Source: Anaerolineaceae bacterium (GTDB lineage Bacteria; Chloroflexota; Anaerolineae; Anaerolineales; Anaerolineaceae). Taken from it: a stretch of DNA of 64,000 nucleotides. The position numbers and the translations under genes are program-made. The notes under the pieces were generated by a model. The model saw only the letters and a list, made by a program, of their open reading frames with translations, was not told the origin of the DNA and did not search any database. Positions within the stretch are counted from its first letter, which is position 1; the number at the start of each line of letters is the position of its first letter. The stretch lies in contig JAENZD010000001.1 of the NCBI GenBank assembly GCA_016841445.1, positions 1,302,001 to 1,366,000 on the forward strand, given 5' to 3'. Below are positions 42,740-44,763 of this stretch, in pieces.

Positions 42740-43813
42740 TTAAGATAAAGTTCGCTTTGCGGGTTCCCGCTCTAAGCCAACCAGAAAACTTGAGAAGACA
42801 CCCTTATTTTCCAGAATCATACCACACCCCCGTGCTACACAGGTCATGGGATCCTCCGCTACCCACACTCGCACTTTTAAATCAGCTGACAAGCGTTCGT
42901 CAAGATTCTTTAACTGAGCGCTGCCGCCAGCCAGACAAATACCATTATCTATCAAATCTGCAAGGATTTCAGGAGGGGCTTCATCGAGTGCGTCTCTAAT
43001 CGTCCTGACAATCACCCCTACCGAACTTGATATCGCTTCGCGAATTTCAACTGATGAAACCTCGATTGCCTCCGGTAATCCGGTGACAAGATTCCTGCCG
43101 CGAACATCGATCGTTAGCTCTTCCTTCAATGGGTAAGCTGAGCCAATGGCGATTTTAACTTTTTCAGCCATGCGTTCACCAATAAAAAGATTATATTTGT
43201 TTCTCAGGTAATTGATGATATCCTGATCAAGCTCATCACCAGCAACACGCAATGAACGTGAAACAACCACACCACCCATCGCCAATGCAGCAACCTCAGT
43301 TGTCCCTCCGCCAATGTCAACGATCATGGTGCCCTGTACCTCATTAACTGGAAGACCCGCACCAATCGCCGCAGCTGATGGTTCATAGATCATTATGACT
43401 TCACGTGCTCCAGCGGCCATTGCTGCGTCAAAAACAGCTCTTTTTTCAACTTCTGTTGCACCAGATGGAATGCCAACAACAACTCGAGGCTTAGGCAATG
43501 GCACGATACTTTGCTGATGAGCCTTTCCGATAAAGTACTCTAATAACGCTTGCGTAATCTCATATTCCGAAATCACACCATCTCTGAGCGGCCGCAGTGC
43601 GATCACATTTGCAGGGGTCCGGCCAACCATAGCTTTTGCCTGAGAACCAATCGCGATTGGTTCTCTGGTTCGTTTCTCAATAGCTACCCACGAAGGCTCA
43701 TTGATAACAATACCCTTGCCGCGAATATAGATAAGGGTATTTGCTGTACCCAAATCAATTCCGATATCCAGGGAAAATAAACCCCAAAACCAATTTAGTG
43801 GGGAAAAAGCCAA
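42740..43813 (-). CDS. mreB: MreB, actin-like rod-shape protein
   Basis: A 357-residue MreB. Phosphate 1 is IGIDLGTANTLIYIRGKG, and phosphate 2 is MIVDIGGGTTEVAALAMGG. The adenosine region is GICLAGGSAQLKNLDERL. The start is TTG at 43813, with AGGAG 8 bases upstream. The last 25 residues (GVFSSFLVGLEREPAKRTLS) extend past the usual end by about ten residues. It heads mreBCD-mrdA-rodA, so the cell is rod-shaped or filamentous. Confidence 0.96.
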   Translation of the reverse strand: MAFSPLNWFWGLFSLDIGIDLGTANTLIYIRGKGIVINEPSWVAIEKRTREPIAIGSQAKAMVGRTPANVIALRPLRDGVISEYEITQALLEYFIGKAHQQSIVPLPKPRVVVGIPSGATEVEKRAVFDAAMAAGAREVIMIYEPSAAAIGAGLPVNEVQGTMIVDIGGGTTEVAALAMGGVVVSRSLRVAGDELDQDIINYLRNKYNLFIGERMAEKVKIAIGSAYPLKEELTIDVRGRNLVTGLPEAIEVSSVEIREAISSSVGVIVRTIRDALDEAPPEILADLIDNGICLAGGSAQLKNLDERLSADLKVRVWVAEDPMTCVARGCGMILENKGVFSSFLVGLEREPAKRTLS

Positions 43814-43836
43814 GTGATGGTCTCCTCTTAAACAAG

Positions 43837-43860
43837 ATTGGTAATGAATTCATTACCAAT
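43837..43860. promoter_or_regulatory. Perfect 24-bp palindrome in the mreB leader
   Basis: ATTGGTAATGAA followed at once by its exact reverse complement, 24 of 24 positions, with no loop. It lies between the predicted mreB transcription start (near 43864) and the ribosome binding site. This is the size and symmetry of a dimeric repressor operator, for example of TetR or MarR type. As RNA it could also fold into a hairpin before the start codon. Confidence 0.7.
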
Positions 43861-43870
43861 AATGTTGGCA

Positions 43871-43898
43871 ATTATATCACATGATTAATTAATCTTAA
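43871..43898 (-). promoter_or_regulatory. Promoter of the mreBCD operon
   Basis: On the minus strand TGA then a perfect TATAAT (43876-43871), an extended -10, with a weak -35 TTAAGA (43898-43893) at 16 bp. The palindrome follows a few bases after the predicted start. Confidence 0.6.
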
Positions 43899-44061
43899 TA
43901 ATTATCAACTAGAGGAGTTTACCTTTATCAAACTTACCTGTCAATAATCGCAACTTCCTCTAATCTTGGGGAAGGGAAACATTTTTATCGGGATTTAGAT
44001 GATAAAATTAGGTATCGATGATCAATAAAGAGCTGAAACTACATGGTGAAAGGGCTTATGA

Positions 44062-44763
44062 ATGAGTGAAGCATTAAATCTTTTTCGTTTACAGAAATTA
44101 GATACCCGGATCGAAAAAAACCAATCACGGCTACAAGAAATTGAGAAATTACTCAGCGATGATCGTCGAGTCAAACGTGCGGAAAAACTGGTTCACCAAA
44201 CCAATGAGAGCGCAAAGCAGCTTCGTATCAAACTGCATATGATTGAAGACAAAGTCGAAGCCCAGAGAATTAAACGTAAAACGGACCAGGCATCATTGTT
44301 CAGCGGCAAAATCAAGAATCCAAAAGCGCTCCAAGACTTACAAATGGAATCGGAAGCCATCAAACGTTACATATCTAAATTAGAAGATGAACAATTAGAA
44401 GTCATGATTGAATATGAGGAAGCTGAAAAAGCGAAAAATCAAGCAGAGAAGGACCTTAAACAAGCAAAAGGAACTGCTGTAGAAGAAAATGCTGCTCTGG
44501 CAGGAGAAAAAAATAAACTGGAAGACGAATTAAAAACGATGCTGCGGGAAAAAGAGGCTGTCTTTCAGGCAATATCCCCACAAACATTAAAGTTATACAA
44601 CCAGCTGCGAAAAACAAAACGGGGTGTTGCGGTGACAAGTTTATCTGAGGGTAGTTGCGGCATTTGTGGACAAGCCTTAACACCAGCAGACATGCAATTA
44701 ATCAGGGCTTCAAATAATCTCGTGTTTTGCCCTTCTTGTGGAAGAATATTATTCGAGGGATAA
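44062..44763 (+). CDS. Coiled-coil protein with C-terminal C4 zinc ribbon (DUF164/CT398 type)
   Basis: A 233-residue protein. Residues 1-175 form a long antiparallel coiled coil (LFRLQKLDTRIEKNQSRLQ, then KNPKALQDLQMESEAIKRYI). The end is a zinc ribbon, CGICGQALTPADMQ and FCPSCGRILF, with four cysteines. The family is widespread and of uncertain role. The chlamydial member CT398/CdsZ binds sigma-54 and type III secretion factors. It is divergent from mreB. Its stop is 5 bp from that of the convergent yggT. Confidence 0.87.
   Translation: MSEALNLFRLQKLDTRIEKNQSRLQEIEKLLSDDRRVKRAEKLVHQTNESAKQLRIKLHMIEDKVEAQRIKRKTDQASLFSGKIKNPKALQDLQMESEAIKRYISKLEDEQLEVMIEYEEAEKAKNQAEKDLKQAKGTAVEENAALAGEKNKLEDELKTMLREKEAVFQAISPQTLKLYNQLRKTKRGVAVTSLSEGSCGICGQALTPADMQLIRASNNLVFCPSCGRILFEG

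Follow-up and report, generated by a model that had tools for sequence, protein, structure and literature searches.

A conserved inverted repeat at the predicted start of the mreB operon in a genus of Anaerolineaceae, probably the DNA image of a 5′-terminal leader hairpin

The window analysed here, a 64,000-nucleotide stretch of the genome of an Anaerolineaceae bacterium that, judged by MreB, has Brevefilum MAGs among its named close relatives, carries a rod-shape operon on its minus strand. The first gene, mreB (42740..43813; 357 aa, TTG start; MreB_Mbl, E=2.8e-132), is followed by mreC, a 169-aa ORF in the position of mreD that was without a Pfam match, a PBP transpeptidase gene, and a gene of the FtsW/RodA type. 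Along the mRNA strand, the leader presents a predicted upstream promoter, P1 (TTGACA-17-TAAACT, minus strand, 43916..43944, boxes recognized by eye), a predicted extended -10 element, TGTGATATAAT (P2, minus strand, 43871..43881, read from the sequence), a few nucleotides, the palindrome ATTGGTAATGAATTCATTACCAAT (43837-43860), a CTTG linker, a Shine-Dalgarno (SD) sequence, and the TTG codon. The -10 boxes of P1 and P2 are 45 bp apart, and the start predicted from the spacing of P2 is at ~43863-43864, about 3-4 nt 5′ of the sequence that, on the mRNA strand, reads as a hairpin with a 10-bp stem and a 4-nt centre. The conserved linker and SD occupy 43822..43836 on the minus strand, with the SD itself read as GAGGAG at 43827-43822, and the palindrome lies between the predicted extended -10 (43881-43871) and the SD, as the earlier sequence-only reading had placed it. 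In the genus leaders, no U-run was found 3′ of the hairpin, where CTTGTTTAA or something similar stands instead; an intrinsic terminator or attenuator was ruled out for lack of such a run. A search of Rfam returned no family at the gathering score, the best hit being folP at 23.8 bits against a threshold of 99, on the strand opposite to mreB.

The palindrome is exact and gap-free over its 24 bp. That such a match is very unlikely by chance, as the same reading had claimed, was borne out: only 0.0044 perfect palindromes of at least 24 bp are expected per 64 kb at the composition of the window, and none appeared in 200 Markov-1 simulations of it. With up to 3 mismatches allowed, the 24-bp sequence occurs at a single place in the 3.35-Mb genome, and in the genus mismatch-free sites are found at mreB, so that it is not a widely scattered repeat. 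The half-site ATTGGTAATGAA has four matches in the same genome, two of them being the palindrome itself and two being partnerless half-sites elsewhere. A second perfect 24-bp palindrome, GAGAACCAATCGCGATTGGTTCTC, lies within mreB at 43642-43665. It covers P-I-A-I-G codons, whose skeleton is itself near-palindromic when inspected by eye, and it showed no conservation among relatives.

The genus set comprised 16 genomes including that of the window, and a full-length mreB match with its leader could be read in 13 of them (the window, L036-L046, and L017); the other three (G002, G004, and G005) have completeness values of 81, 69, and 70. The comparison of mreB leaders in relatives, proposed at the outset as a check, placed the element directly 3′ of the extended -10 in all 13 leaders. 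The TG.TATAAT motif is present in every one, the boxes of P1 are recognizable by eye in 12, with a -10 located 42-52 bp upstream of the proximal -10, and the distance from the end of the stem to AAGGAG or GAGGAG is 9-11 nt in all 13, which leaves the SD outside the main stem. What is conserved is a pair of 10-bp inverted-repeat arms around a variable centre of 3-4 nt (AATT, TTG, TTA, GTTC, TGAG, TTT, TGTA, CACA, AAAC in three leaders, CCCC, and CCCT), the centre being 1 nt shorter in three of the 13 (L036, L037, and L040). As the centre is free across the genus, the perfect 24-bp symmetry is a peculiarity of this species, an accident of its own centre. The arms are 86% and 82% identical and the CTTG linker 84%, against 26% for the centre. 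Fourfold sites of mreB, recomputed on a codon alignment, are on average only 34% identical (range 23-87%), which argues that the element is under selection. Two middle pairs of the stem, G-C and U-A, are invariant.

For the closest mreB outside the genus (L047 in G078, 80%), the stem at this position is shorter, reading ATTGGTA-GCGA-TACCATT. In the mreB leaders of another lineage (L057, L104, and the Candidatus Mesolinea MAG L058), the corresponding position holds a perfect palindrome of 20 bp with a different sequence, ATTTGGAATTAATTCCAAAT. A covariance model, R1, run over 101 genomes gave strong matches only in the 13 genus genomes used to build it, and none of the 17 loci examined for its weak matches (L154-L170) contained mreB. 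The element is real, selected, and genus-wide.

The way in which the arms evolve bears on whether they act as RNA or DNA. In a pairing alignment of 13 rows, 12 of them distinct (A2), 95.0% of 120 stem cells are paired, compared with a mean of 92.4% after shuffling (8 of 500 shuffles as high), and three cells are changed on both sides, compared with 0.6 in shuffles (4 of 500 as high). When the structure is slid along the alignment, only 23-54% of cells pair. Over all 13 rows, six cells are changed on both sides, four of which still pair (L040; L043, L045, and L046) and two of which do not (L037 and L039). The compensatory changes fall in two pairs, A-U to G-C (L043, L045, and L046) and A-U to U-A (L040). 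As many pairs changed on both sides arose in 42 of 500 shuffles and an equal covariation score in 25 of 500, while for further pair types 471 of 500 shuffles did as well, so that these show no excess. One-sided changes, read on the mRNA strand of the 13 rows, comprise seven G-U, one A-C, and three transversion mismatches, the three plain mismatch cells sitting at the tip or in the interior of the stem. Parsimony on an mreB tree with several poorly supported nodes gave about six G-U events versus one A-C event, and one-sided sign tests gave 0.035 for 7:1 and 0.06 for the 6:1 events. Because a G-U on the mRNA strand is an A-C on the other strand, this bias points to RNA; at 7:1 it is small, and we take it as modest evidence. 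Overall, the pairing patterns constitute real but modest evidence for an RNA structure. The shorter centre in three species and the shorter stem in L047 point the same way, as they are hard to reconcile with a rigid dimer site and easy to reconcile with a hairpin. Nevertheless, the arms are conserved beyond what pairing needs, which suggests that something reads their sequence or that several constraints overlap.

In folding predictions, the first 34 nt had a mean z of -3.8 in 11 genus leaders versus -0.66 in 45 others (mononucleotide shuffles), in a survey that excluded 24 of 80 loci because no TATAAT was found in the last 70 nt or the leader was too short. Among the 45 usable leaders of other genera, eight reached a shuffle p<0.05 where 2.25 were expected; three of the eight are nearly identical, so no general rule of hairpins emerges in the family. 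With dinucleotide shuffles, the window leader had a z of -3.0, and whole-leader values over the 13 genus leaders ranged from -0.68 (L043) to -3.65 (L045), with a mean of about -2.0. The best fold lacked the hairpin in L043 for the whole leader and in L040 when coding sequence was added. Nor did 12 TATGNTATAAT sites inspected by eye reveal any genome-wide pattern of 5′ hairpins at extended -10 elements. Immediately after the hairpin, a weak 4-bp helix can form between CTTG (43836-43833) and the 5′ portion of the SD (43827-43824), abutting the main stem without a spacer; the window itself has three of the four pairs.

The explanation that best fits these observations is that the palindrome reflects, at the DNA level, a stem-loop formed at the extreme 5′ end of the mreB-operon transcript when the proximal promoter is used; this stem-loop would protect the rod-shape mRNA and perhaps tune its translation. 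We put the probability of this reading at roughly 55%. Transcription would start a few nucleotides before the palindrome, and the first ~24 nt would fold in the cell into a 10-bp hairpin, probably comparable to the 5′-terminal stem-loops of E. coli ompA and B. subtilis aprE. Such a hairpin would hinder 5′-end-dependent decay by an exonuclease of the RNase J type, and perhaps also the removal of the 5′ pyrophosphate, and would in this manner stabilize the transcript. An influence on the rate of translation may come in addition, if the hairpin stacks on the short CUUG/SD helix next to it. The genome encodes an RNase J-type protein (TIGR00649, 577.9 bits) and gave no match to RNase E/G, which makes 5′-end-dependent decay plausible. 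In both E. coli and B. subtilis, 5′ secondary structures and hairpins are reported to stabilize mRNAs (PMC3997798), including the ompA mRNA (PMC2777011), and, taken with the plausibility of 5′-end-dependent decay, this makes protection of the 5′ end the most likely role. The predicted overhang of 3-5 nt need not block an enzyme similar to the B. subtilis RppH, for which two unpaired 5′ nucleotides are described as sufficient and three or more as preferred (PMC3997798).

As a kind, the element is already known. In the leaders of E. coli ompA and papA and B. subtilis aprE, as described in PMC3997798, a hairpin likewise stands a few nucleotides from the 5′ end (a position that is predicted here), in a short leader, ahead of the SD and distinct from it. 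The mreB element differs from them in its sequence and gene, in arms that are conserved genus-wide, and in the second predicted promoter upstream. No mreB leader hairpin was found in searches of the open-licence PMC literature. Besides the conservation of the arm sequence, the modest covariation, and the overhang, it counts against a 5′-terminal leader hairpin that transcripts from P1 would carry it internally and that the element was not found in most other genera.

The sequence-only reading had instead proposed a dimeric repressor, bound just downstream of the start, that would block the proximal mreB promoter. That reading was right to see, where the rod-shape operon begins, a feature that is specific to mreB and selected, and neither of the two outcomes it had named as refuting was observed. 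The operator is less supported; the element was rightly spotted but probably misread. We still regard an operator as the main rival, possible if doubtful: the dyad at the predicted start site is near-perfect, the position is classic for a repressor, and the arm sequence is strongly constrained. The premise that direct repression of mreB would be non-standard was too strong, as BolA is reported to bind the mreB promoter of E. coli and to lower mreB expression (PMC10051749); that system likewise acts at the mreB promoter, and BolA was not found in the genome studied here. However, several features of the element do not suit an operator. The spacing of the half-sites is not constant, given that three of the 13 leaders have a centre reduced by 1 nt and that L047 has a shorter stem; one-sided changes are biased to G-U on the mRNA strand; and the CTTG linker is conserved although it is non-palindromic. 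The suggested search for a regulon was run with the half-site and also with the full site, and it yielded only mreB in the genome of the window, apart from the two lone half-sites, and across the 16 genus genomes mismatch-free sites lie at mreB only, the few sites with one mismatch away from mreB being in G000, G010, G013, and G015.

Neither a linked regulator nor further sites were found, although an unlinked regulator with a single site would escape such a search. The genes upstream of mreB differ between loci, and no regulator was seen travelling with the site: MoxR-type AAA ATPase and DUF58 genes are found in four loci examined (L036, L038, L039, and L045), and the window, L044, and L017 have a zinc-ribbon gene there. 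In the window, this gene (44062-44763, divergent from mreB) encodes a CT398/HP0958-like coiled-coil zinc-ribbon protein, a relative of which in H. pylori is reported to bind the flaA mRNA (PMC5947703). It was rejected as a partner of the element because it adjoins mreB only in those three loci; it lies about 2.7-2.8 kb from mreB in L037, L039, L040, and L041 and was not found within the flank (0.66-3 kb) in L036, L038, L042, L043, L045, and L046.

The arms recur elsewhere in the family, where they looked at first like support for an operator. The pattern TGGTAATG-N4-CATTACCA, i.e., the same 8-bp arms around a 4-nt centre, was found in 11 of 147 family genomes, at mreB in five genomes of the genus and with an ACCA/TGGT centre in six genomes that belong to four other genera. 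Of these six, five (G078, G106, G076, G023, and G176) have it on the locus of a GntR/UTRA regulator, and in the sixth, G079, about 2.4 kb of the same contig separates it from the GntR gene. Two of the weak R1 matches (L154 and L156) also led to TGGTAATGACCACATTACCA between the regulator gene and an RpiB gene. The regulator, which adjoins an RpiB-like isomerase in both loci examined, is present at 59% identity or more in 39 of 147 family genomes, and TGGTRRTGACCA or a sequence near it lies on GntR/UTRA loci of several Anaerolineaceae genera (L154, L156, and L202-L231). In 20 of 30 regulator loci, TGGTRRTGACCA is exact and in one orientation as the best match, a count that leans that way since the core was taken from best matches to a query containing it; in the rest it is close, and the far arm drifts. 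This site is likely an autoregulatory operator of a sugar regulon. The rpiB-linked site shares with the mreB element the arms TGGTAATG...CATTACCA and the 4-nt centre in six family genomes, but its best-kept core is TGGTRRTGACCA and its centre is constrained, whereas the centre of the mreB element is free. Moreover, the GntR core continues as ACCA, which is absent from every mreB centre, and TGGT-N4-ACCA occurs in none of the 13 elements. At E<=1e-40, the regulator itself was matched in none of the 16 genus genomes, eight of which are at least 90% complete. We therefore set it aside as the binder of the mreB element, although a GntR paralogue of like specificity is possible.

A leader RNA that serves mainly translational control, in which the hairpin stacked on the CUUG/SD helix tunes access to the SD, possibly with temperature or a protein ligand, appears improbable. 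It would account for the absence of a spacer between the two helices, for the 84% identity of the linker, and for CUUG/UAAG pairing in 97.9% of 48 cells over 12 distinct rows, a figure that is confounded by SD conservation. However, the second helix has just 4 bp with the conserved SD as its 3′ side, no Rfam family was reached at the gathering score, and the predicted SD accessibility ranges from 0.03 to 0.59 over the 13 genus leaders with no consistent pattern. Chance or a mobile repeat is a highly improbable origin: the palindrome inside mreB shows that an accident can produce one, but the leader element is kept in 13 of 13 leaders despite near-saturated synonymous divergence and occupies one place in the genome.

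A more elaborate proposal, which we consider rather unlikely, is that the rod-shape operon of the Brevefilum group has a cis-acting leader RNA dedicated to it. In this RNA, the 5′-terminal hairpin would be stacked on an SD-masking mini-helix, its sequence would also be read by a protein, and the ensemble would couple the life of the mRNA and the translation of MreB, MreC, PBP2, and RodA to growth.

From a biological perspective, if the 5′-terminal hairpin protects the mRNA as we propose, the rod-shape operon of a little-cultured lineage would be controlled through the life or translation of its mRNA, besides its promoter, and the element would be a compact 5′ stabilizer. A perfect palindrome at a start site, in that case, need not mean an operator.
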